Source of the DNA: Occallatibacter savannae
GTDB lineage: Bacteria > Acidobacteriota > Terriglobia > Terriglobales > Acidobacteriaceae
Reading direction: 5' to 3'
Assembly: GCF_003131205.1 (NCBI RefSeq)
Contig: NZ_QFFY01000003.1
Span: forward strand, 434,001 to 498,000
Length of the DNA: 64,000 nt
Shown: positions 2,923 through 26,774 of the stretch, one piece after another
How the letters are laid out: every line of letters begins with the position of its first letter
How positions within the stretch are numbered: the stretch's first letter is position 1
The notes under the pieces: generated by a model
The model's database searches: none
What the model was told of the DNA's origin: nothing
What the model saw: only the letters and a program-made list of their open reading frames with translations
Program-made: the position numbers and the translations under genes

Positions 2923-4797
2923 ATGACATTGAACCGTCGTGGTTTTCTTGCCGTGTGCAGCAGTGCAGGCATCACCTCCGCTCTTTTTCCTGGAGTTCTC
3001 TATACCCTGGCCGCGCAGGCGCAGGAGGCGAGTGGGACAGATCAGTCGAAGCCGCCGAAGATTACGCCGGAGATGATCGACGCGGCGGCGGTGCTGGCGG
3101 GTGTCGGGCCGTTTACGGATGCGCAGAAGAAGATGATGATGGACGGGCTCGTGGATGAGAACGGGTCGTACAAGGCGATTCGAAAGCTGAAGATACCGAA
3201 CTCGGTGCCGCCGGCGTATGTGTTTCATCCGCAGGTGCAGGGAACTCCGAAGCACTTGGTTCAAGAGCTGGGTCGAGGGGGATGGAGTCCGAGATCTGAT
3301 GTAAGTGCTCCATCGAGGATCGAGGACCTCGCTTTCTCGACGGTGAGCGAATTAGCAAGCCTGCTACGAACGCGCAAGATCACGTCGCTCGCGCTGACGC
3401 AGATGTACATCGCAAGACTGAAGCGATACGACTCGAAGCTGCACTTTGTGATCACGCTGACGGAGGAGCGGGCGCTGGCGCAGGCGAAGGCGGCGGATGC
3501 GGAGATTGCTGCGGGCAAGTATCGCGGGCCGCTACATGGGATTCCGTGGGGTGCGAAGGATCTGCTGGCGGTGAAGGGGTATCCGACGACGTGGGGTGCG
3601 GGTGGATTCGAGCACCAGTCGTTTGATGAAGACGCGACTGTGGTGAAGCGGCTCGACGAGGCTGGGGCGGTGCTGGTTGCGAAGTTCACACTTGGCGCGC
3701 TGGCGATGGGCGACAAGTGGTTTGGCGGCCGCACACGCAATCCATGGAATCCGGAGCAGGGATCGAGTGGTTCGTCGGCGGGATCGGCGAGTGCTGTCGC
3801 TGCAGGTTGCGTGGCGTTTGCGATTGGGTCGGAGACACTGGGGTCAATCAGTTCTCCTTGTACGCGGTGTGGAGCTACGGGCCTGCGGCCTTCATTTGGT
3901 GCGGTGCCGCGCACGGGAGCGATGGCGTTGAGCTGGACCATGGATAAACTCGGGCCCATCGCGCGCTCGGCTGAAGACTGTGCGCTGATTCTCGATATCA
4001 TTCACGGCCCCGATGGTCATGACACGTCGGCAGCTGAGATGTACTTTCGCTACCCACCGCAAGAGAATCTGCGTTCGCTCCGCGTGGGATACATCAAACA
4101 TGACTTCGACGAGCCTGAGCCCTTCAAAACCGAACCGCCTCCGAAGTCTGAAACCGCAGAGGAAAAGAAAGAGCGCGAGAAGCGCGAGGCGGAGGGGAAG
4201 GCTGCGTACGAGCGGCGCATGTACGATCGGCGCTACGATCGCGCGGCGCTCGACAAGCTGCGCGGCATGGGCATCGAACTGATTCCGGTGGAGCTGCCGA
4301 AGCTGCCGTATGGCGCGATGGTTCCGCTGTTGACTGCGGAGGCCGCAGCGGCGTTCGATGATCTGACACTGAGCGGACGCGATCGGTTGCTGACGGAGCA
4401 AGGGATTGAGGACTGGCCGAATGCATTCCGTACGGCGCGATTCTATCCCGCGGTGGAGTACATCCAGGCAAATCGCGCGCGGACGCTGGCGGTGCAGCAG
4501 GTATCGGCGCTGTTCGAGAAGGTCGACATCATCGTGGCGTCGTCAGGCGGCATGCAGCTGCTGGCGACGAACCTGACGGGGCATCCGGCTGCGATCGTTC
4601 CGAACGGGATTCGCGGAGACGATGCGCCCCGTCCCCCAAAGGTCGACACCGGAGATGAAGACAACATCGGCGGGCCGGGGACGCCGGTCTCGATTACGTT
4701 CCTCGCAGGTCTGTATGACGATGCGCGGCTGGCGGCGTTCGCACAGGCGTATCAGGATGCGACCGGATTCAACAAGGTTCATCCGAAGCTGGATTGA
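2923..4797 (+). CDS. Tat-exported amidase (amidase-signature family)
   Basis: Amide hydrolase with the Ser-cisSer-Lys triad of the amidase-signature family. Lys212 lies in GIPWGAKDLL, cis-Ser about 282 in the GSSGSSAG loop, and the nucleophile Ser about 308 in TLGSIS. The start ATG at 2923 has AAGGA at 2911-2915. The N-terminus (LNRRGFLA) is a twin-arginine signal, so this is an exported amidase, not GatA. About 130 residues precede the signature domain. Residues 395-430 form a Lys/Glu-rich charged insertion (EEKKEREKREAEGKAA) that looks like a surface helix or disordered loop. The substrate is unknown. Confidence 0.9.
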   Translation: MTLNRRGFLAVCSSAGITSALFPGVLYTLAAQAQEASGTDQSKPPKITPEMIDAAAVLAGVGPFTDAQKKMMMDGLVDENGSYKAIRKLKIPNSVPPAYVFHPQVQGTPKHLVQELGRGGWSPRSDVSAPSRIEDLAFSTVSELASLLRTRKITSLALTQMYIARLKRYDSKLHFVITLTEERALAQAKAADAEIAAGKYRGPLHGIPWGAKDLLAVKGYPTTWGAGGFEHQSFDEDATVVKRLDEAGAVLVAKFTLGALAMGDKWFGGRTRNPWNPEQGSSGSSAGSASAVAAGCVAFAIGSETLGSISSPCTRCGATGLRPSFGAVPRTGAMALSWTMDKLGPIARSAEDCALILDIIHGPDGHDTSAAEMYFRYPPQENLRSLRVGYIKHDFDEPEPFKTEPPPKSETAEEKKEREKREAEGKAAYERRMYDRRYDRAALDKLRGMGIELIPVELPKLPYGAMVPLLTAEAAAAFDDLTLSGRDRLLTEQGIEDWPNAFRTARFYPAVEYIQANRARTLAVQQVSALFEKVDIIVASSGGMQLLATNLTGHPAAIVPNGIRGDDAPRPPKVDTGDEDNIGGPGTPVSITFLAGLYDDARLAAFAQAYQDATGFNKVHPKLD

Positions 4798-17235: not shown

Positions 17236-19104
17236 TTACAGAACGATTGCCACATCTTCTTGCCGGGTGCCGAAAGAGCCGGGCATCACCGACTTTAAGA
17301 AACAGTGCATCACGATCCTCGCCCATCTTCGAGTCCATGGGTTTTCTGTGCCAGGGATCGGGCGAAGTCTAAGATCCATGCTGTCGACAGCGGAGGCCAG
17401 CCACTCCGTCATGGGAACAGTGAAGCCTGTTTTGCGACGTCTCGCGATGCTTGGGGGCAGAGGATTGGACGGCACCCCTGCGAGCAGCCGCTTCCCCCGC
17501 CCATCGCGGAACATCGTGTGCAAACTCGAGAGGTCGCGAAGTAGGGCCGCATCCACCAGTGGAGTGCGGAGTTCGAGCGAATGAGCCATACTCGTCCAAT
17601 CGCTGTCGCGAAGAAGCATATTTCTCATATAGAGCGTGGAATCGAGCATGCAAATCTGACCGCTGACGTTGGGCGCACGGTTTCCGTTCATGGTGGGCGG
17701 AACCACTCCGAGACGCCCAAGCCCCTCCTCAGCCGCATCAGGACCCATGACCCATGGCAATTCGAATGGCATGAACAGTCCGCGCTTCAGAAAATACTCG
17801 CCTTCAACGGAGCCCATAAAGTCGGGGAGTCCCCGCACCTTGGGATGGATTCTTCCCAAGGCGACAGCGTCGATCGCCTTCCTGGCCAGGGCGCGGCCGC
17901 CGGGGAATTGCGCAATGCCTCGCGCCAGATTCAAGCGACGAGGAATTTCCCGTGTAAGACCATAGCCATAGAAGAGTTCATCCCCGCCGACGCCAGAAAG
18001 CACCACTTTGTAGCCGCGCTCTGCGGCGGCCTTACTGGCAAACCAGGTATTTACTCCATCGATGGTTGGCTGATCCATCGCTTCCATGAACAGCGGGATA
18101 TCCCTGTCGAACTCCGACCGGGTCACGTAACGGATGTGATGTTTGAGGCGGTAGTGTTTTGCGATCTCCGCAGCTACTGGTCCTTCGTCCAGTTCCCGGT
18201 CAGCAAACTCGTTGAAGGCGATCGTGACTCCCTCGAGGTTTGCGCCAAGTTCGGAGAGGATCCCCGCAATTGCTCCGGAGTCGATCCCACCGGATAGAAA
18301 TACGCTCACCGGCACATCAGCAACGAGATGCGCGCGAACGGAGTCGGTGATTGCGTTTCGTACGCGCTCCTGCAGTTCGCGCTCGCTCAATGTGACCTGG
18401 GCATGGCTCCATGCCGTGCCTATGTCGTCCCAGGTTACGGGCAAAGTTGGAAGGTTGGATCGGACCCTCATCCAGCTTCCGGCGGGGAGACTTCGTACGT
18501 TTCTAAATGTGGTCCAAGGCTCAGGGACGCTACCCCAGAGATAAAACCCGGCCAATCCGGCTGGTTCGATCTCCGCTGAAATAAGACCGCTTGCGAGCAA
18601 GGCTTTGACTTGTGAGGCGAAAAGCAGACCGTAAGGCGTCTCAGCGTAGTAAAGGGGCTTGATGCCGTAGGAATCGCGCGCCAGGAACAGCTCACGCGAT
18701 TGCGTGTCCCAGATGGCGAATGCGAACATGCCTCGGAGACGGGGCAGCATCTTCTCGCCCATGCGCTCATAGAGAGCGAGTATCACTTCGGAATCCGAAG
18801 TGGTCCGGAAGCGCTCACCCTGTGCCTCCAGCTCGCGCTTGAGCTCCCGGTAGTTGTAGATTTCACCGTTGAAGACCAATACATAACGTTCGTTGGAGAA
18901 CGTCATGGGTTGATTCGATCGAGGGTCGAGATCGATGATGGCTAGCCGCTTATGCCCGAGGACAACTCCGTGTCCTGTCCAGAGGCCTTCTGCATCGGGG
19001 CCGCGGGCATCCATCCGCCGGATTGTCCGTCGCACCGGGTCGACGTGCACAATCTCGTCAGTCGACTCTCCAGCAGGAACAACGAGCCCGGCAATGCCAC
19101 ACAT
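17236..19104 (-). CDS. asnB: Asparagine synthase (glutamine-hydrolysing)
   Basis: Makes L-asparagine from aspartate, ATP and glutamine. Cys2 (MCGIAG) is the glutaminase nucleophile, and the N-terminal class II amidotransferase domain runs to about residue 200 (RGPDAEG, VFNGEIYNY, FAIWD, RDSYGIKPLYY). The synthetase domain has the PP-loop SGGIDS at 271-276 and LSGVGGDELFYGYG. At 622 aa it matches the longer B-type enzymes common in Acidobacteria rather than E. coli AsnB. Some relatives act in exopolysaccharide or exosortase loci, so a non-asparagine amidation is possible. Consumes the same aspartate pool as the neighbouring lysC pathway. Confidence 0.9.
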   Translation of the reverse strand: MCGIAGLVVPAGESTDEIVHVDPVRRTIRRMDARGPDAEGLWTGHGVVLGHKRLAIIDLDPRSNQPMTFSNERYVLVFNGEIYNYRELKRELEAQGERFRTTSDSEVILALYERMGEKMLPRLRGMFAFAIWDTQSRELFLARDSYGIKPLYYAETPYGLLFASQVKALLASGLISAEIEPAGLAGFYLWGSVPEPWTTFRNVRSLPAGSWMRVRSNLPTLPVTWDDIGTAWSHAQVTLSERELQERVRNAITDSVRAHLVADVPVSVFLSGGIDSGAIAGILSELGANLEGVTIAFNEFADRELDEGPVAAEIAKHYRLKHHIRYVTRSEFDRDIPLFMEAMDQPTIDGVNTWFASKAAAERGYKVVLSGVGGDELFYGYGLTREIPRRLNLARGIAQFPGGRALARKAIDAVALGRIHPKVRGLPDFMGSVEGEYFLKRGLFMPFELPWVMGPDAAEEGLGRLGVVPPTMNGNRAPNVSGQICMLDSTLYMRNMLLRDSDWTSMAHSLELRTPLVDAALLRDLSSLHTMFRDGRGKRLLAGVPSNPLPPSIARRRKTGFTVPMTEWLASAVDSMDLRLRPIPGTENPWTRRWARIVMHCFLKSVMPGSFGTRQEDVAIVL

Positions 19105-19198
19105 CTTCAGCCTTCCTACGTCCCGTGCGCACGGCCAGCAACAATTCCCGGGTAGGCCGAATCTACTAAAACAGCGCCCCTGGGCACGTGATGAACCG

Positions 19199-19204
19199 AT
19201 TATA
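19199..19204 (-). promoter_or_regulatory. Candidate -10 box for asnB
   Basis: On the minus strand the bases read TATAAT, about 95 bases before the asnB start codon. A -35 box is weak (AAGACG about 17 bases upstream). An AACAAT-TT-ATTGTT palindrome at 19263-19276 lies further upstream and could be an operator. Confidence 0.4.
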
Positions 19205-19362
19205 CGTAGACGTTTTTGCCCCGTCTTTGATTACGTGGACATCTTTATGAATTGTTTATGCGAACAATTTATTGTTGTCCAAAACAGTGAAATTCGGCCC
19301 TACCGAATGATGCGATTGAAACGGGAAATGCCCATCTCGCCGCGCACCCGCTGGAAAATCGC

Positions 19363-19375
19363 TTATTCTGGTAAG
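19363..19375 (+). repeat. Candidate attL core (13-bp direct repeat)
   Basis: TTATTCTGGTAAG occurs here and exactly again at 24114-24126, in the same orientation, flanking the recombinase-bearing segment. The match continues as one mismatch followed by CA in both copies. It is the natural candidate for the left attachment core. Confidence 0.6.
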
Positions 19376-19420
19376 TCAAGTGGATTGGCGCAAACCCTTG
19401 TGTTTATTGGTGTCTCGGGG

Positions 19421-19498
19421 GTGTCCAAAGATTTCTGGACACTTGCGCGTTTTCAAATCGCCAGTGTTTATGCGGCGATGTCCATGGGGAGTGGACAC
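19421..19498. repeat. GGACAC motifs at the left island end
   Basis: GTGTCCA (19421-19427) and TGGACAC (19436-19442) form a 7-bp inverted repeat with an 8-base spacer; another TGGACAC is at 19492-19498. The same hexamer recurs three times at the right end. Possible recombinase arm-binding sites. Confidence 0.4.
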
Positions 19499-19520
19499 CC
19501 AGAGGTTACCATAATTCGGC

Positions 19521-19536
19521 TGTGATATCGCTCACA
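19521..19536. promoter_or_regulatory. CRP/FNR-family type palindrome
   Basis: TGTGA-TATCGC-TCACA matches the CRP consensus TGTGA-N6-TCACA at all ten defined positions; the symmetry extends to GCTGTGA/TCACAGC (19519-19538). No gene starts nearby, but a terminator-like hairpin lies 55 bases downstream. Confidence 0.45.
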
Positions 19537-19590
19537 GCTAAATAGTAATCAGACAGTCACTTTTGCGGATAAGTCAGGACAAAACCCTTC

Positions 19591-19632
19591 GGGCCGCCCG
19601 GGAGCGCGGCCCTGGCTTTTGCTTTTGCTTTT
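19591..19632 (+). terminator. Rho-independent terminator-like hairpin
   Basis: GGGCCGC (19591-19597) pairs with GCGGCCC (19606-19612), loop of 8, followed by TGGCTTTTGCTTTTGCTTTT. No upstream plus-strand gene is recognised, so it may end a short untranslated RNA beginning after 19540. Confidence 0.55.
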
Positions 19633-19698
19633 CACGAGACATGCCCCGGATAGTTGGCCGTGTGCGCGGGCGTGTCAATGCCGGAGTCGTGAAACGAT

Positions 19699-19997
19699 CG
19701 GAGCGAAGCGGAGAGCATTGACGCGTCCGCGATGATGGCGAGCTGCGCGGGCATGGCTCGTGTCCTCTGCCGTGCGGAGCACGGCGGCGCGACGAAGGCG
19801 CGTGCTCTTTATGGGTGTGTATCTATCCCCACGGGCGCGCGTCGAGGATCTTCACACCAGGGCTTTTTATAAACAGACGCGCGACCCGTAGGGTGGGCGG
19901 GGGGCCGGAGCGAAGCGGAGGGGGGCCGCCCACCGTGGGGTGGGGCGGCGGCGCGAAGCGTGGCCGCCTGGCCGGAGAAGAGACCGAGCGAAGCGAG
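19699..19997. repeat. GGAGCGAAGCGGAG repeats and long GC-rich stem-loop
   Basis: CGGAGCGAAGCGGAG occurs identically at 19699-19713 and 19906-19920, with a shorter variant at 19985-19997. The second copy sits in the loop of a stem formed by GGTGGGCGG (19892-19900) and CCGCCCACC (19926-19934). No reading frame here looks coding. Confidence 0.55.
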
Positions 19998-20160
19998 CTC
20001 CTTGTAGAACATATAGTTCTTTAGCTCTTATCTAGTTGGGTTGTATCTATGGTCTTTTATTGGAGGCGTGTCCTGGCGACGGAGGCCTGGCTGTCGCGAT
20101 GAGCTGCTCGGCGATGGTTCTTTTAACTCAGGGGAACGATGGCCATCACAGCATGTAGAG

Positions 20161-20340
20161 TCAGTCGGCGGCTTGGTCTTGCTGGAGGCGGGCGCGGAGG
20201 TCGCCGATTGCTTGCTCAAGAGCAGCTCTGGCCGGAGCGAGGCTGGAGGGGATTTCGCTCATGCGGTGCTCGTAGTAGTCCACCAGCGAGAGGGTGCCTT
20301 CGAGAATCTCGGCGAGGTCTTTGTACGGATTTGATGGCAT
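20161..20340 (-). CDS. Small unknown protein (59 aa), island
   Basis: An open frame from ATG at 20340 to TGA at 20161, below common length cut-offs. The sequence is low in Cys and rich in Ala, Leu, Glu and Arg (KDLAEILEGTLSLVDYYEHRM, then ALEQAIGDLRARLQQDQ) and reads as two amphipathic helices, possibly a short coiled coil. Codon use is normal for the genome (C or G in third positions). It is last in a run of minus-strand small genes beginning at 21535. Function unknown. Confidence 0.6.
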   Translation of the reverse strand: MPSNPYKDLAEILEGTLSLVDYYEHRMSEIPSSLAPARAALEQAIGDLRARLQQDQAAD

Positions 20341-20455
20341 GGGCCCTGGGCCGTTATCGCGGCGATATTGCGCCCGGGGGATTGCGCAGGTGAATCATAG
20401 CCGACGCTGAGCGGCGTTCGCAAGAAGCAATGGACGCGGCGAAGAGGTGTTTGCG

Positions 20456-20641
20456 CTAGCGCAAGTAATTGCCAAGCAGCTCGGCGGGTGGGTCGTCTTC
20501 GATGAGGTTGAATTCCCGGAGAATCTCAAGGAAGGTGCGCTTGACTTCGATGGTGACGGGATCGTCTTCACCTAGGGTCGAGTCAAGGTCCCTGAGGGCC
20601 CGGTAGACGGCGGGCAAGAGGGATGTGCTTGCGGGATTCAT
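20456..20641 (-). CDS. Small unknown protein (61 aa), paralogue of the next gene upstream
   Basis: Starts MNPASTSLL at 20641 and ends at 20456. An in-frame GTG at 20707, directly abutting the stop of the preceding gene, is possible but lengthens the protein beyond its paralogue. The two align as MN-S-LL-V-RA followed by a shared EDDP/QDDP core and a -VIEL/-TIEV-R helix. Predicted helical; no known domain. Probably translated from the same message as the sigma-like gene. Confidence 0.6.
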   Translation of the reverse strand: MNPASTSLLPAVYRALRDLDSTLGEDDPVTIEVKRTFLEILREFNLIEDDPPAELLGNYLR

Positions 20642-20707
20642 CCTGAGTACCTGGATGAGGGTTGCGATGCGAGCGGATCCGGGAGGGTTGCCCGGCTCAC
20701 GGCGCAC

Positions 20708-20881
20708 TCAGTTCGCGAGGTCGTCGGGGAGCTCGGCGAGTTCTTGATGGATGCGGCGCTCGAGGATGGCCCTGAGTTCAATGACGGCGGGGTCGTCCTG
20801 GCTCCAGTCGGCGCTGGTTTCGACGTGGAGGAGTGTAGCCCTCAGGACCTTCAAAAGGTGATGCGATTTACTGCTGTTCAT
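20708..20881 (-). CDS. Small unknown protein (57 aa), paralogue of the next gene downstream
   Basis: Starts MNSSKSHHLLKVLRA at 20881. An upstream start at 20974 would overlap the sigma-like gene and add a low-quality segment. The core SQDDPAVIELRAILERR parallels EDDPVTIEVKRTFLE in the downstream gene, so the pair looks like a tandem duplication. Its stop lies just before the downstream frame. No function can be assigned. Confidence 0.6.
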   Translation of the reverse strand: MNSSKSHHLLKVLRATLLHVETSADWSQDDPAVIELRAILERRIHQELAELPDDLAN

Positions 20882-20945
20882 GCGAGTTGTTAGACGTAGT
20901 GTTACACGGATGGAATTGCCGTGCCGGGAGAGTTGGTGACGGCTG

Positions 20946-21296
20946 TCACAGCAGGTCGAGGCGGTCGAGTACATCGGTCAATCGACGACGAGCGGCGGGG
21001 ATGAGGTAGTAGACGTTGCGCTCACTCATGCCCAGGACGCGGGCGGCGTCGCGGTGGCGGACACCGTCGCGATACGTGAGCACCAGGACTTGTTGGTGGA
21101 TGGGGTCGAGGCGAGAGAAGGCGCGTTCGAAGTCGAGGACGCGGACCTGGCGGGAGTCGGCTTCGGATAGACGACGCTCGCGCCAGCCGGAGCGCTTGAG
21201 GCGGGCGGTGTTGCCCTGGCGTAGCGCAGTGCGTTCGAAGGCCCACTGACGCAGGCGCAGGATGGCTAGGACTTGGTCTGACGGGATACCAGGCAC
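20946..21296 (-). CDS. Sigma-70 region 4-like DNA-binding protein
   Basis: 116 aa from GTG at 21296, preceded by GGAG in GGAGAAGAGAAA. The C-terminal 60 residues are a region 4 helix-turn-helix: FSRLDPIHQQVLVLTYRDGVRHRDAARVLGMSERNVYYLIPAARRRL. No region 2 is present, so it is not a complete sigma factor; stand-alone region 4 proteins occur in mobile elements as transcription regulators. It overlaps the preceding gene by 31 bases (coupled translation). A longer open frame to 21755 exists, but its added part is an Arg/Pro-rich shadow of the overlapping gene. Confidence 0.75.
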   Translation of the reverse strand: MPGIPSDQVLAILRLRQWAFERTALRQGNTARLKRSGWRERRLSEADSRQVRVLDFERAFSRLDPIHQQVLVLTYRDGVRHRDAARVLGMSERNVYYLIPAARRRLTDVLDRLDLL

Positions 21297-21535
21297 TTTC
21301 TCTTCTCCGGGTTGTATTCGTCGAGTTCTGCGACGGCCTCCTGAAGGTGTGCCAGGGGCATGCCGCTGGCCTCTGCGATTTCGCGGAGGACGGACTGCTG
21401 GCGGTCCAGTGTCGGCGCGGGCGGCTGGGGATCTTCGAGCCAGGCGAGGGCTTCGGCGGCGGGAGTTTCTTCTCGGGCGGGGGTGCGTTGGGCGGGGTCG
21501 GAGTCTAGGAGCGGGTGCACGGATGAGAATACCAC
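21266..21535 (-). CDS. Unknown 89-aa protein upstream of the sigma-like gene
   Basis: Reads from GTG at 21535 (or GTG at 21520) to TAG at 21266. The Pro/Glu-rich first half (AREETPAAEALAWLEDPQPP) is followed by a helical segment (RQQSVLREIAEASGMPLAHLQEAVAELDEYN) that could be a small helix-turn-helix or dimerisation helix. Its 3' end overlaps the sigma-like gene. An inverted repeat covers the first start codon, suggesting autoregulation. No family recognised. Confidence 0.55.
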   Translation of the reverse strand: MVFSSVHPLLDSDPAQRTPAREETPAAEALAWLEDPQPPAPTLDRQQSVLREIAEASGMPLAHLQEAVAELDEYNPEKRKCLVSRQTKS

Positions 21536-21563
21536 AGGTTGTGGTTACATCGGACGACCACAA
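21531..21563. promoter_or_regulatory. Operator-like inverted repeats between divergent island genes
   Basis: ACCACA-GGT-TGTGGT (21531-21545) is a perfect 6-bp inverted repeat; its right arm TTGTGGT (21539-21545) also pairs with ACCACAA (21557-21563). Three half sites in 33 bases at the head of the minus-strand operon suggest binding of a dimeric regulator, perhaps one of the small proteins encoded there. Confidence 0.45.
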
Positions 21564-21644
21564 CATATTGCGGTTTACTCTTTTATAACTTCCGAGTGGC
21601 CGACAATCCGGGCCTATTATGAAAAACGGCAGGTATCTGACATT

Positions 21645-21875
21645 GTGAGCCGCACTCGAAAAGACGCCAGACGGCAGCAAGGCACGGTGATTGAAGTCGT
21701 CAAGGTTGGTAGCGACGCCTTCGATCTGTTGATCAATCGCGAAATCTTTCGGCACAATGCGCCTGAGGCCGCATTACCAGAATTGCTGTGCATTCGCTAC
21801 GGATTCTGCGGCGAAGAGTACGAAGCAATACTTGAGGAGATCGAACGAGAGGGTAAGAAGGTCATCGTTCTTTGA
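21645..21875 (+). CDS. Unknown 76-aa cargo protein A
   Basis: Open frame ending at 21875; the GTG at 21645 is the only reasonable start close to the conserved-looking part, with AGG about 12 bases upstream. The frame is open further up to 21360 but there it is antisense to the 89-aa gene. The sequence (TVIEVVKVGSDAFDLLINREIFRHN, then CGEEYEAILEEIEREGKKVIVL) alternates strands and helices and is acidic at the end. The surrounding DNA is poorer in G+C than the rest of the island. No family recognised; the start is uncertain. Confidence 0.5.
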   Translation: MSRTRKDARRQQGTVIEVVKVGSDAFDLLINREIFRHNAPEAALPELLCIRYGFCGEEYEAILEEIEREGKKVIVL

Positions 21876-21899
21876 GACTCTCGGGCCCGTAAATTACAT

Positions 21900-22211
21900 A
21901 TGACAAGCAAAGAGGGAATGCGAGAAATCGAATCGGCAATTCGCGGCGTCCTCATGGCAAAGTGGGATCCGATAGGCGTGAGCGATGAACCTCAAGCCGC
22001 TGACGAATACGACAGCTACATCTGGGGCATCTATGGTCTCTTCAAGAAGGGCGCAAATGACGAGGAGATCGCGGAACATCTTGTAAAGATCGAAACAGAG
22101 AGAATGGGTCTTACCGATCTAGAGGGAAAACCATTCGCTTCGCAGCAGGCGCTTCTTTCGGTCGCGGCTGACCTACGAGAGATTCTGACGTCGGTTTCGC
22201 GTAAAGCCTGA
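21900..22211 (+). CDS. Unknown 103-aa cargo protein B, DUF1871-like
   Basis: ATG at 21900 follows the previous stop by 24 bases; ATG at 21918 is the alternative. The block VLMAKWDPIGVSDEPQAADEYDSYIWGIYGLFKKGANDEEIAEHL resembles small DUF1871-type or immunity-like proteins in which WDPIGV and DEYDxY recur. This is a tentative pattern match. It is helical and acidic, with no signal peptide. With gene A it forms the only plus-strand unit in the island, so the two are probable cargo. Confidence 0.6.
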   Translation: MTSKEGMREIESAIRGVLMAKWDPIGVSDEPQAADEYDSYIWGIYGLFKKGANDEEIAEHLVKIETERMGLTDLEGKPFASQQALLSVAADLREILTSVSRKA

Positions 22212-22276
22212 ATCACCGGCAACTCGGAACCAAGGATTTTTTCGGTCAGCCGGTGCGGGGAAGTCGCACCGAAAGG

Positions 22277-22612
22277 TTAAGCGCTTGGGCAGGCAGCGAG
22301 GATCCGACTGGCGATGGCGCGGGCCTCTTCCCACATTTGAGCTTCGTCCTGTTCGGTGGCTACGTCCCACAGATCCATGGCGGCGTTGTGGAGCACGGCG
22401 GCGAGCTTGGCGGCCGGCGCCGGTTGCCGCACCAGCGGCCCAGGGACTTCGCGGCGCTGTTTGGCGAGCGAGACCTGGACACGGGCGCAGATTTGAGCGG
22501 CGGTGAGGACGGGCTTTGTTGGTTTCCCAGGTCCCGACACAGGGACGACCTGGGGCACCCGGGCGGGTGGGTTGATGGGGGCGGGCTTGGCGGCGGGGGT
22601 GGGGGTGGTCAC
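22277..22612 (-). CDS. Unknown 111-aa protein co-encoded with the integrase
   Basis: Begins with GTG at 22612 overlapping the TGA of the preceding gene (GTGA). The first 45 residues are Pro/Ala/Val-rich (KPAPINPPARVPQVVPV), the rest is helical: LTAAQICARVQVSLAKQ, LAAVLHNAAMDLWDVATEQDEAQMWEEARAIASRILAACPSA. No DNA-binding motif is obvious. Third gene of the recombinase operon. A longer frame to 22870 overlaps the preceding gene and is not needed. Confidence 0.65.
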   Translation of the reverse strand: MTTPTPAAKPAPINPPARVPQVVPVSGPGKPTKPVLTAAQICARVQVSLAKQRREVPGPLVRQPAPAAKLAAVLHNAAMDLWDVATEQDEAQMWEEARAIASRILAACPSA

Positions 22613-22965
22613 TTCTTTCTGGCTCCTTTGGCTTTGAGAGTGGACATGGCAACTTGTGCGGCGTAGAGGAGTTGCGAGCCGTCGCGCCCGTCGAAGACTT
22701 CGAGGGCGATGCCCTGCGCGATGCAGGCAATTGCGGCGCGGATGGCGTTTAGAGACTCCATGCGCGGCATGGCGAGCTTGTAAGCAACAGACGCCATGCG
22801 GAGCGCTTTGGGCTGGGCGAGGCCTTTCTCTTTGGCGAGGGCGAAGGCGTGGTGGTATTCGTCCTGGCACTTGGCGACGGCGCGCGCGGCGAGGCTGGTG
22901 CGGTCGCGCGGCGGTTCGGCGTGGGCGTGGAGGATGAGAGGTCGAGCGAGGAGGGCGGTTCTCAT
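22609..22965 (-). CDS. Unknown 118-aa protein co-encoded with the integrase
   Basis: ATG at 22965 overlaps the integrase stop (ATGA). Ala-rich and helical throughout, with a distinctive run CQDEYHHAFALAKEKGLAQ and KLAMPRMESLNAIRAAIACIAQGIALEVF. The C-terminus is basic (LKAKGARKK). Stop and start overlaps on both sides show tight coupling with the recombinase and the 111-aa gene. Might be a recombination directionality or accessory factor, but nothing in the sequence proves it. Confidence 0.65.
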   Translation of the reverse strand: MRTALLARPLILHAHAEPPRDRTSLAARAVAKCQDEYHHAFALAKEKGLAQPKALRMASVAYKLAMPRMESLNAIRAAIACIAQGIALEVFDGRDGSQLLYAAQVAMSTLKAKGARKK

Positions 22966-23989
22966 GCGGTGCGGGGTTCGCTTTCTGCGGCGGTGATGCG
23001 CCGCTTGATGAGTTCGAGGTTGTGACGTGGAACGGGTCGGAGGTCGTGGTCGAGGTACCAGATGGTTGACTGAAGCGACCGGTGCCCGAGGATGGCTTGC
23101 ACGTCGCGCACGTCGTGGGTGAGGCGGAGCATGCCGACTGCTGTGGTGCGGCGGAGGTCGTGGGGCGTGATGCGGCGCTCGATTCCCTGCTCTTTGCAGA
23201 GTTGGCGAAAGAGAATGCGGAGGCGATCCGCGGATGTGCAGTCGCGTTTGGGTCTGCGCCCGAGCTCGCGGGGCTTGCGCATCCAGAGCTGACGGACGAA
23301 GGATGTTGGGTCGCGGAGATCGCAGAGCGCGATGAGGTCCGCTATCTCTTGGGTGACAGGAAGGGCGAGCCGAGCCTCGCACTTGGTGGTGAAGCGGAGC
23401 ATGCGCTCGGATGCGTCGTATTGGTAAGGGCCGAGTCGCGCGGCGGTGCCGGAGCGAATGGCGAGGTCGGAGCAGAAGAGAATCCAGAGGCGGAGGAAGT
23501 CGGGCGCGGCGTCGAGCAGTGCGGCGATTTCTTCATGGCGGACAGTGACGCTGCGCGGGCGAATGCCGTGATAGGCGCGCATCTGCTGGTCGAGCTTTGG
23601 CGCGCCGTGATACTCCCAGAGCCAGCGGAGAATGCGGCGGATCGCGGACGAGAGAAGCGCCTTGGTGGTGTAGGCGTAGCCGGAGCGGTAGAGCTGCTCG
23701 TCGAGGTCGGTGATGTGCGCGGCGCTTAGACGCTGCGGCGGAAGGTCACCAGCTTGGGCGATGAGACGCTTCGCGCCCTGGTTCTGAGCGTCACTGGTGC
23801 GGAGCCCGAGGTACTGGGCGCGGAGTATCGAGGCGAGCGTTGGCCCCGCGCCTTCGATTTTGGGTGGGCGAGTTCCTTCTGCTCGGCTTCAAATTGGAGA
23901 GCGGCGCGGCGGGTGGTGAAGGATTTGCGGAGGCGTCGACCTGTGCGGTCGCGCCAGTCGGCGTAGAACTTGCCCTGCTTTTCGAACAT
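22962..23989 (-). CDS. Tyrosine recombinase (integrase) read through a -1 frameshift
   Basis: Start ATG at 23989 has AAGGA six bases upstream. Frame one encodes an arm-binding-like N-terminus (MFEKQGKFYADWRDRTGRRLRKSFTTRRAALQFEAEQKELAHPK). It then runs out of homology and would stop at 23726, giving 87 aa. Shifting by -1 at 23858-23864 joins it to a frame open down to 22962. That frame encodes a core-binding domain (TLASILRAQYLGL, LSAAHITDLDEQLYRSGYAYTTKALLSSAIRR) and the catalytic domain with Arg-I in AIRSGTAAR, HDLR, LGHRS and the Tyr of STIWYLDHD. The fused product would be about 342 aa, normal for an integrase with all key residues intact. Programmed frameshift is plausible; a simple indel pseudogene is the alternative. 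Confidence 0.75.
23817..23864 (-). promoter_or_regulatory. Candidate programmed -1 frameshift signal in the integrase mRNA
   Basis: On the minus strand, C CCA AAA (X XXY YYZ, bases 23864 to 23858) lies in the incoming frame. A 5-base spacer TCGAA follows. Next comes a stem of GGCGCGGGG (23852-23844) with CTCCGCGCC (23825-23817): nine pairs including one G-U, loop of 18. This is the standard arrangement for -1 frameshifting. Efficiency cannot be judged from sequence. Confidence 0.6.
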
Positions 23990-24034
23990 GCGGCGTCCTT
24001 GCGTGGAGTGTAGCTCTCGCCCACGATTTGCTAC

Positions 24035-24105
24035 GGACACCGATGGACACTAGCTGGATATCGATATCGTCGCAATTGACGCGGGTGCGGAGCTGTGACG
24101 GACAC
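24035..24105. repeat. GGACAC motifs at the right island end
   Basis: GGACAC at 24035-24040, TGGACAC at 24044-24050 and GGACAC at 24100-24105, all in the same orientation, between the integrase start and the attR-like core. They mirror the motifs at 19421-19498. Confidence 0.4.
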
Positions 24106-24113
24106 TACATGGT

Positions 24114-24126
24114 TTATTCTGGTAAG
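24114..24126 (+). repeat. Candidate attR core (13-bp direct repeat)
   Basis: TTATTCTGGTAAG, identical to 19363-19375. It lies 125 bases outside the integrase start and 38 bases before glnD, the usual position of an attachment site next to an integrase gene. It contains TATTCT, which could act as a glnD -10 box. Confidence 0.6.
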
Positions 24127-24164
24127 ACATCATTAAGCACGACTTGCCTTCACAATAGACACTC

Positions 24165-26774
24165 ATGACTCCAGTCGCTCTAGCGGTTGACGATCTACGG
24201 GATCAGTATCTCCGGGAGATGGCGCTCGTCCGGCAGACCTGCGAGCGGACCGGGGATGGGACCGCGGCGATCCGTCGAAGGTCGGCGGTGGTGGACCGTA
24301 TCCTCATTGAAATGTGGCGTCGGGCGTTCGCAGGACAGCCTGCCCAGAACGTTGCGCTACTGGCGCTCGGTGGCTACGGACGCAAGGATTTATTCCCTTT
24401 CTCGGACATCGACGTGCTGTTTGCGTTTTCGGACGAGAAGACGGAGGAGCAGACCCGAGAGGCTGTCCGTTCGGTGATTCAAGGGATGTGGGACATCGGC
24501 CTGCGGGCCAGCCCAACGTCGAGGACAGTGAAGGAAGCAGGGCGGTTCGATCCGGACAATCTCGAGTTCACCCTGGCGACGCTGGATCGGCGATTTCTGG
24601 CCGGGCAGTTCCCTCTTTACCAGCAACTGCACCAGACGGTCTTTCCCGGGCTGGTTCTAAGCGAGTGGAACACGATTACCCAGAAGCTGGGAGAGATTGC
24701 CCGGGGACGGCACGCGAAGTACGGCAACACCATCTTCCACCTTGAGCCGAATCTGAAGGAGTGCCCCGGTGGGCTGCGGGATTACCACCTGGCTGTCTGG
24801 TTTGCGCTGCTCTTCCACCTCAAGGAGACGAAGGAGTGGCCGCGCCAGCGCGGGGGCGTTTTCCAGAGCGCGCGCGGCGATGCCGAGGCGGCGTTCGACT
24901 TTCTGGCTGCGGCGCGCTGTTTTCTGCACTTCCGGCATGGACGCGACGACAATACGCTCGACTGGCAGTCGCAGGATGAGGCGGCGGCGAATTCGATTGG
25001 GCTGGAGACCCGGGGGACGGCCGATCCGGCGTACTGGATGCGGACCTACTACCGGCATGCGCGCGTGATTTACCGCAGGGCGGCGCTGCTGATGGAGCAC
25101 TTGCCTGCACCCGTGAGCTTCTACCGGCAGTTCCGGCGGCGGCGAACCCCGATTGCCGGAACGGATTTCATTCTGGATCAGGGCCGTATCGACATCCTCC
25201 CTGGAGCGCAGTTCAGCGATACGGCGGCGATTCTGCGGGTGTTCTCGCTGATGGCAACGCACGGGTATGCGCTGTCGCAGGCTGCGGAGGACCGGATCAC
25301 GGATGCCCTGCCGGCATTGGCGATCCATATCCCCGAGGGGCCGTACCTCTGGAACGCGCTGCGCGAAGTGCTGCTGGGCCCGCATGCTGCACACGCGCTG
25401 CGGACCATGCATGCCCTGGGCGTGCTGGAGATGCTGATTCCAGAGTTTCACCTGATTGACGCTCTTGTGATTCGCGACAGCTATCACCGGTATACGGTGG
25501 ATGAACATACTTTTCTGACTATCGACAACGTGCACAGCCTTCGCCAACCGGCACATGACTACGAGCACAGGCTGGCGCAGCTGTTGCCGGAGATCGACAG
25601 GCTGGACCTTTTCCTGCTTTCGCTGTTGCTGCATGACACCGGCAAAGGACGCAGGAGCGGCGAGCATACCGGACAAAGCGTCGAGTTGGCAGACGGCTTC
25701 CTCGCACGTCTGGACTTCGATTCTGAAGAGCGAGACCAAGTGTTGAAGCTGATCCGGCTGCATCTGGACATGTCGAATGCGCTGCGCAGAGACATCTTCG
25801 ATGCGGACAACATTCGAAATTTCGCGGAAAAGGTCGGAAGCCCGGCCCTGCTGAAGATGCTTACGCTAATGACCTATGCGGACATCAAAGCCGTCAATCC
25901 GGAAGCGCTGACCCCGTGGAAGGCCGAAAACCTCTGGCAGCTGTATATGGCGACCGCGAATTTCATGGATCGGAGCGTGGATGAGGTTCGATACCATTCG
26001 GCAATTGATCCCACGCTGCTAAACCGGATTCGATCGATGGTGCCGTCGAGCCAGTACGACGCGCTCCGGCAGTTCCTGGAAGGGCTCCCCCAGCGCTATC
26101 TGCAGACGCGACTGCCGGAACACATCCGGAACCACTTCCAGCTTGCTTTGAATCTCGACAAGAACCCCGTCCAGCTTGACCTCCGACCCCAGCGACAGCT
26201 TTTCGATCTGACCGTGATCGTCCGCGATCGCAGCAGGCTATTCGCCGATGTTGCGGGAGCGCTTGCGGCCTGGGGGATGAACATCGTGAAGGCAGGCGCG
26301 TTCTCAAATGATGCGGGTGTTGTTGTCGACAGCTTCCAGTTTACGGATGTGTTCAGGACCATTGAGCTGAATCCGAGTGAGAAGGATCGTTTCCTGAGCT
26401 ACCTCCACGAAGTCGTTGCGCAGAAGGTCCCGGTGGAGCAGATGCTCGATTCGCGCCGCCATACGAGCAGCGGCAGCAATGTGAAGGTAGAAGTTGGAAC
26501 TCGGCTGCAATTCGATTCGGAATCGTCGAGCCATTCCACGCTTTTGCAGGTGGTGGCGCAGGATGGGCCGGGACTTCTTCGGCAGATTGCGCTTACGCTA
26601 AGCCAGCACAAATGCAACATCGAGGTTGCGCTTATCGATACCGAGGGAGAGACCGCAATCGACGTCTTCTACCTGACTGAGAATGGGGCAAAGCTCGGCA
26701 GTGATGTACAGAAGGCGCTGGCCGCAGATCTGACCGCGGCGATCGCGGAGTTGCGGACTCCGGCGAATGCGTGA
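24165..26774 (+). CDS. glnD: [Protein-PII] uridylyltransferase / uridylyl-removing enzyme
   Basis: Senses glutamine and modifies PII proteins. Domains in order: nucleotidyltransferase with GGYGR (69-73) and SDIDVLF (Asp81, Asp83); central helical region; HD domain with [15 protein letters not shown] near residue 490; two C-terminal ACT domains ([25 protein letters not shown] and [44 protein letters not shown]). Full length at 869 aa. No strong SD before the ATG. Its upstream region is the right border of the mobile island, so the insertion may have replaced part of its promoter. Confidence 0.95.

Follow-up and report, generated by a model that had tools for sequence, protein, structure and literature searches.

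A Conserved -1 Ribosomal Frameshift Very Probably Controls the Tyrosine Integrase of a Small Integrative Element in Acidobacteriota

Introduction

The enzymes of the insertion sequence families IS1 and IS3 are DDE transposases, and the short InsA and OrfA proteins of these elements bind DNA, the slip in IS1 and IS3 falling at a domain boundary. In IS1 (InsA/InsAB') and IS3 (OrfA/OrfAB), just as is proposed for the locus described here, the reading frame changes by -1 at an X XXY YYZ or Z_ZZN motif that is accompanied by a stimulator. As set out in the accessible text of PMC4066793, two overlapping genes thus yield a short product and a fusion product, the latter being the transposase; the same text counts V_VV.A_AA.R among the most efficient heptamers in Escherichia coli and describes C_CC.U as a shifty tetramer that works given a strong stimulator. 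Unlike these DDE enzymes, the protein considered here is a tyrosine recombinase, and it belongs to an integrative element with an att core and putative arm sites.

The joined protein resembles lambda Int and the integrases of Tn916/Tn1549, in that a (probable) arm-binding domain is followed by core-binding and catalytic domains with the catalytic residues in place, and the element resembles the lambda Int type in having an att core and, at either end, repeats that look like arm sites. Arm-binding domains of integrases are AP2-like. The relatives examined for comparison are single open reading frames (ORFs), whereas at our locus the probable arm-binding domain lies in another frame.

For the regulation of such elements, two described systems bear comparison. 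In KplE1 the integrase promoter overlaps the att region, IntS can repress its own gene, and intS is regulated both by IntS itself and by the RDF TorI (PMC2951348, accessible text). IntS therefore provides a precedent for autorepression, but the repressor proposed below would be the arm-binding fragment that results from not shifting. In the ICEs of Mesorhizobium, a frameshift makes FseA (Msi172-Msi171), a regulator needed for the transcription of rdfS (PMC5882170, accessible text). FseA thus resembles our locus as a case where programmed ribosomal frameshifting controls a mobile element; here, however, the frameshift would make the recombinase and not a regulator of the directionality factor gene.

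An earlier reading of the same DNA, made from the letters alone (hereafter the sequence-only reading), considered a -1 frameshift unusual for a tyrosine recombinase, and no such case was found in the literature searched, subscription journals and supplements apart. The accessible texts of PMC3711429, PMC5009743, PMC4066793, PMC10885494, PMC8138268, PMC5882170, PMC3091744 and PMC2884959 likewise contain none, and the main text of the tyrosine integrase family survey PMC8138268, as far as accessible, has no word beginning with "frameshift". An earlier mention, say among frameshift clusters tabulated in a supplement, is possible. The mechanism itself is known; its use for a tyrosine integrase, as it seems kept across a whole group, we have not found in print.

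Results

The Integrase Gene and Its Two Predicted Products

The integrase gene lies on the minus strand of the window, by which we mean the whole stretch of 64,000 nucleotides from Occallatibacter savannae (contig NZ_QFFY01000003.1) that was analyzed. The first ORF (23726-23989) runs from the ATG at 23989 to the stop at 23726, comprises 87 codons and is preceded by an AAGGA sequence at 23996-24000, also on the minus strand, which is its likely ribosome-binding site (6 nt 5' of the ATG). Judging from the ORF call, the structural model and the lengths in homologues, this 0-frame ORF encodes an N-terminal (N) domain followed by an unconserved tail. The catalytic frame is open from 23888 to the stop at 22962, and the slippery heptamer CCCAAAA at 23864-23858, recognized from the sequence and from homologues, reads C CCA AAA in the incoming frame. 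Joining the -1 frame at this heptamer gives a product of 342 amino acids (aa), of which the part encoded at 22962-23864 would form the core-binding and catalytic domains of a tyrosine integrase, as judged from the sequence, PF00589, the conserved residues and the model; PF00589 matches the joined protein at 58.6 bits (cut-off 27.1). The sequence-only reading had placed the N-terminal domain (from 23989) and the catalytic domain (to 22962) in different frames, with C CCA AAA in the incoming frame at their junction, and had given 87 aa for the unshifted and about 342 aa for the shifted product. Rechecking of the coordinates to the base and a recount of the codons bear this out.

The N domain is predicted to fold as beta-beta-beta-alpha (pLDDT 80), with a helix that runs to residue 41, some two codons short of the slip; in the model, the split falls at the end of the probable arm-binding domain. 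Among fold matches of similar size, the AP2/GCC-box domain 1gcc comes closest (Z 4.9, rmsd 1.9 over 45); its Z score is in the middling range and below those of three Toxoplasma mitoribosome rows (Z 5.0-5.3). No solved integrase arm domain is among the fold matches, which does not exclude kinship, and Foldseek gave no match for the domain at E <= 0.001. At the sequence level, the N domain matches PHROG integrase family 11531 (5.9e-05), and its consensus weakly matches annotated phage integrases (best 2e-3). Since the Z score is middling and integrase arm domains are missing from the matches, we regard it as only likely that the 87-aa product is an AP2-like arm-binding domain. The 0-frame product varies in length from 48 to 209 aa among 37 loci and its tail is unconserved, which fits a product defined by the N domain.

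The model of the C-terminal (C) part is that of a tyrosine recombinase (pLDDT 92) and matches IntI4 (2a3v), XerA (5hxy) and lambda Int (1z19 and 1z1b). In an alignment of 35 rows, which leaves out G166 and G587, residues K161, H235, D236 and R238 are invariant, and R137, H261 and Y270 are present in at least 90% of the rows. The earlier claim that the shifted product holds all catalytic residues agrees with this, R, K, H-x-x-R, H and Y being kept in at least 90% of the 35 rows. As read from the sequence, the shifted product would be a complete tyrosine integrase with probable arm-binding, core-binding and catalytic domains. Membership of the integron integrase or XerCD class was rejected on NCBIfam scores far under the curated cut-offs (XerA-type 54.9 bits against 220, XerC 47.8 against 335, integron integrase 33.5 against 265), and an IS1 or IS3 family element on the ground that the catalytic part is a tyrosine recombinase and not a DDE transposase.

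Homologues Share the Frame Offset

In a first search among 60 relatives, the N and C parts of several homologues came up as separate matches in different frames. Wider searches covered 399 genomes of the class (protein and profile), 398 of the family, 396 of the phylum, and genome contigs; matches in the latter include Terracidiphilus gabretensis S55, whose slip site is of the C_CCT type, as well as a Granulicella MAG and other Acidobacteria. All three frames near the C domain were scanned for the N domain in the loci taken further, so that a single-frame gene would have shown up. The catalytic part lies in the -1 frame in 39 of the 39 distinct examined loci with both domains (37 loci, G129 and G499b), none of which has an intact single ORF. 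The recurrence of frame change and heptamer in homologues had been suggested as a check of the sequence-only reading, and the outcome was 39/39 for the offset and 31/39 for the heptamer. Identity to the catalytic part of the window ranges from 20 to 57% (34 other aligned rows).

Frames were examined for the better-scoring loci only. The family search found 54 of 398 genomes at 1e-20, and those examined were the new loci among the best 30 rows plus G499b, rows weaker than about 8.6e-24 being left out of the frame census, as were the weakest rows of the class search (G378, G079 and G428). In the phylum search, 25 loci were scanned for the ORF of the catalytic part only, in a single frame. Dropped before the count of 39 were the second, identical tandem copy in G163, refetched duplicates (L063-L066, L068, L070-L073 and similar), L067, G561, G597 and G035, where no N domain was found, G021, with the N domain only, and G675. 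In the decayed-looking G675, the one locus to break the pattern, the two domains share a frame, but two stops separate them and a -1 segment lies mid-way, apparently a second shift. G166 contains stops within its catalytic match.

An unrooted C-domain tree separates the 37 frameshifted loci, by a branch with SH-aLRT 100, from 33 single-ORF recombinases. The latter were chosen from 71 loci with a usable ORF, among which are a few members of the frameshifted group. Single-ORF relatives were found only outside this group, and the existence of full-length ones such as L143, where one ORF matches profile positions 2-327, points to the frameshift as a derived trait. All confirmed members are from Acidobacteriota, the searches beyond the phylum being limited to genome contigs, viral contigs, plasmids, phages and the N-domain consensus. 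Plasmids and phages, searched by tblastn with the fused protein, yielded nothing at 1e-5; viral contigs gave ten distant matches, and the ORFs of those scanned are single. At a separate locus (L038 in G021:C147, about 4115-4585), the same N domain is fused in frame to another sequence, presumably CutA-like, with no catalytic domain detected in the fusion; it may have arisen by deletion, or it may represent an arm-binding domain that was captured.

A Slippery Motif of Changing Sequence

Close to the domain boundary, 31 of the 39 loci have an X XXY YYZ heptamer in frame, namely at codons 37-53 in 29 of 37 and in the two later loci G129 and G499b. The types found are CCCAAAA, AAAAAAA, CCCAAAC, GGGAAAA, AAACCCT and AAAAAAC. 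Five more of the 39 loci have a C_CCT tetramer (G017, G155a, G005 and G668 by script, G018 by eye), while the remaining three (G482, G587 and G600) show neither X XXY YYZ nor C_CCT near the boundary; their U_UUC or U_UUU tetramers at codons 35-36 were left out of the motif count. Across 37 loci, such heptamers occupy 33 of 442 codons at positions 37-48 and are rare elsewhere: in the two-frame overlap 9 of the other 2920 codons carry one, and in the catalytic frame 9 of 8425. For the 34 typed loci, one quick tree implies no fewer than 11 changes of motif, so that slipperiness, rather than sequence, appears to be what is kept. Over the first 45 nt past the slip, substitutions are not enriched at third positions of the -1 frame (89, 67, 82).

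One subgroup (L132-L137, L131 and L009, from G668, G482, G674, G010, G587, G600, G259 and G018) has mostly an RKRG-type N terminus. It keeps the -1 split, its slip sites are more varied (CCCAAAC, AAACCCT, C_CCT or none clear), and it is without GTGTC in the 160 nt upstream.

A Stem Downstream of the Motif

The nine-pair stem that had been proposed to follow the heptamer of the window after 5 nt was found as described, with eight Watson-Crick pairs and one G-U pair. Its 5' arm, GGCGCGGGG, lies at 23844-23852 and its 3' arm, CTCCGCGCC, at 23817-23825, both on the minus strand; the assignment draws on the pairing, the stem test in homologues and folding. Folding of the first 41-50 nt past the heptamer gives this stem as the structure of lowest energy (-16 to -17 kcal/mol), but with 60 nt a different fold is preferred (-21.4 versus -17.8 with the stem enforced). 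Taken alone, the stem of the window has p = 0.02 against dinucleotide shuffles, and its support comes from recurrence and not from the window copy alone. In 33 loci, stems starting 2-9 nt after the motif give a summed z of 13.9 against dinucleotide shuffles, compared with -1.84 to 1.28 at five control offsets further down the gene; kinship of the loci inflates the summed z, and the control offsets carry the same kinship. Individually, 21 of the 33 stems reach p <= 0.05 and 12 miss that level, those of G054, G363 and G674 scoring below the shuffled mean.

RNAalifold found no consensus structure on a codon alignment of 18 loci, because the stem registers differ by indels, and covariation was for this reason counted only in 8 loci, selected from the 33, that share one register without gaps. 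Their covariation score is 0.413 against 0.119 for shuffled alignments, with none of 500 shuffles as high and 0.052 to 0.198 for slid registers; both sides changed in 4 of the 9 pairs, a number that 37 of 500 shuffles reach, the shuffles in both cases ignoring relatedness. Fold energy gives weak z-scores, averaging -0.67 for stretches of 60 nt and -1.18 for stretches of 50 nt, against -0.19 in 165 control windows of 60 nt, and Rfam has no match in 19000-24500. We take the stem to be a probable stimulator of slippage.

Another candidate stimulator is an AAGGA sequence at 23874-23878 (minus strand), 9 nt before the heptamer, which could act as an internal Shine-Dalgarno sequence such as that of E. 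coli dnaX and ranks at 0.03 among the positions of the window gene. Upstream duplex energy averages -3.0 in 33 loci, against -1.1 at other gene positions. An internal Shine-Dalgarno sequence common to all members was rejected, only 12 of the 33 loci ranking at 0.08 or lower.

The Integrative Element

The gene belongs to an integrative element of 4751 bp, core to core (19363-24113), delimited by its cores, arm repeats and an empty site in a relative. The att core TTATTCTGGTAAG is found on the integrase side at 24114-24126, upstream of a gene that we take to be glnD-like, and at the far end at 19363-19375; both copies were assigned from the repeat and the empty site, and they are the only two in the 6.28-Mb genome, 4751 bp apart. 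In G001 a single core copy (one mismatch) stands in front of the corresponding homologue, joining 29 nt that resemble the left flank of the window (93%) to a stretch of 590 nt that resembles its right flank (83%); we read this as an empty site, with modest support on the left. A third, weaker copy (71%) of the 21-nt repeat that contains the att core occurs at 19556-19576, about 200 bp inside the far end.

Repeat searches revealed putative arm sites just inside both cores: a GTGTC pair 10 bp apart at 24036-24050 (minus strand), between the core and the integrase start, and a pair 11 bp apart at 19410-19425 (plus strand) at the other end. These (19410/19421 and 24036/24046) are the only same-strand GTGTC pairs 9-13 bp apart in the window; a third copy lies at 24101, and reverse copies at 19438 and 19494. 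By a wider criterion (either strand, 8-20 bp apart), 19 of 37 loci have GTGTC pairs within 160 nt upstream of the integrase, as opposed to 1 of 217 control windows inside genes, and in many loci the pairs overlap the ribosome-binding region. Each end of the element would thus combine an att core with putative arm sites.

G163 (L100, G163:C6, 6201-13275) carries a tandem of two identical 3527-bp elements and, with it, three copies of the 21-bp core TTGTCGAGGACGAAGACCATG, which covers the start of a presumably trpG-like gene (MVFVLDNYDSFTY...). From the empty site and this tandem, it follows that the elements probably moved with the integrase gene already in split form.

Downstream of the integrase, on the same strand, an ORF at 22609-22965, found in the ORF list and the region comparison, overlaps the integrase stop with its ATG (ATGA); its cluster recurs at this position in 14 of 26 integrase regions, partly via overlapping frames, and its Pfam, NCBIfam and PHROG matches are all insignificant. 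A protein encoded at 20946-21500 (minus strand; provisional start codon) was recognized by a domain match to a sigma-70 region-4-like HTH and by region comparison. It is possibly the element's own regulator, and its cluster is found in 6 of the 26 regions compared. PADLOC gave no match for seven proteins.

Discussion

Alternative Explanations

A pseudogene created by an indel, or a sequencing error, in which a base was lost near the AAAA run and the heptamer is coincidental, is what prior expectation would suggest for a single broken integrase gene, and decayed or truncated relatives do occur (G675, G166, G561 and G597). The sequence-only reading had kept a pseudogene as a possibility, which the census refutes for the group: the same -1 offset at the same place in all 39 examined two-domain loci, from many assemblies, together with the heptamers in homologues, leaves an indel or an assembly error without explanatory value. 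A slippery motif and a covarying stem accompany the offset, moreover, and the catalytic residues are conserved. We consider this explanation exceedingly improbable; as distant relatives share both the break and the type of signal, the frame change has the look of a functioning control switch and not of a gene that was damaged.

If instead RNA polymerase added a base at a homopolymer, some mRNAs would encode the fusion without any slip of the ribosome. A run of seven A does occur in 11 of 34 typed loci and in G129, but the window has only C3A4 and other loci GGGAAAA, CCCAAAC, AAACCCT or C_CCT, and polymerase would need neither an X XXY YYZ or Z_ZZN motif set in the ribosome's frame nor a stem 2-9 nt further on; transcriptional slippage therefore strikes us as very unlikely. 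Overlapping ORFs with translational coupling are also known to occur, and the catalytic part might initiate by itself inside the first ORF, yielding a split integrase of two proteins. Eight of 37 loci indeed have an ATG, GTG or TTG in the C frame by codon 60, but 29 have none at or before that codon (CTG and ATT are not excluded), and in the window the first one, at 23582, comes 94 codons past the slip, so that a protein starting there would lack most of the core-binding domain. Separate initiation would also leave heptamer, spacer and stem unexplained, and we give it very little probability.

Proposed Mechanism

The evidence from the sequences argues strongly for a conserved programmed -1 ribosomal frameshift, which very probably controls the tyrosine integrase of this small integrative element. 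Most ribosomes would stay in frame and make the 87-aa protein, while a minority would slip back by one base on the heptamer and make the 342-aa integrase, aided by the stem and, in the window gene, perhaps also by the internal Shine-Dalgarno sequence. Low integrase output alone would explain selection for such a signal.

The short protein may itself be useful, by binding the GTGTC repeats and thereby lowering integrase synthesis or modulating integration or excision; this we propose tentatively, giving it somewhat less than an even chance. With arm-like repeats lying next to the start codon, the short product might repress the gene or else give shape to the att complex. For such a division of domains between two products, OrfA of IS elements is a precedent. 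On this basis one can conceive of a two-protein switch, a possibility we put slightly below its negation, in which translation without a shift would provide a free arm-binding protein and translation with a shift the complete integrase. The free protein would bind the GTGTC sites by the start codon and the att core, repress integrase synthesis, and compete for, or shape, the arm sites during integration and excision.

Significance

Programmed frameshifting in this group would mean that control by fusion through frameshifting, as in DDE transposases, can arise in an unrelated class of recombinases and do so at an equivalent point, the junction of the DNA-binding and catalytic domains. If the two-protein switch is also true, tyrosine recombinases would have evolved the OrfA/OrfAB logic of IS1 and IS3, once in Acidobacteriota. 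The proposal opens to experiment the question of whether recombination is regulated in trans by a separate arm-binding domain, and the 39 loci offer a natural set where heptamer, tetramer and stem vary together. Finally, if the frameshift is real, a whole group of tyrosine integrases would be made only by recoding; such integrases would look broken to annotation software, and the elements that carry them would therefore be overlooked.
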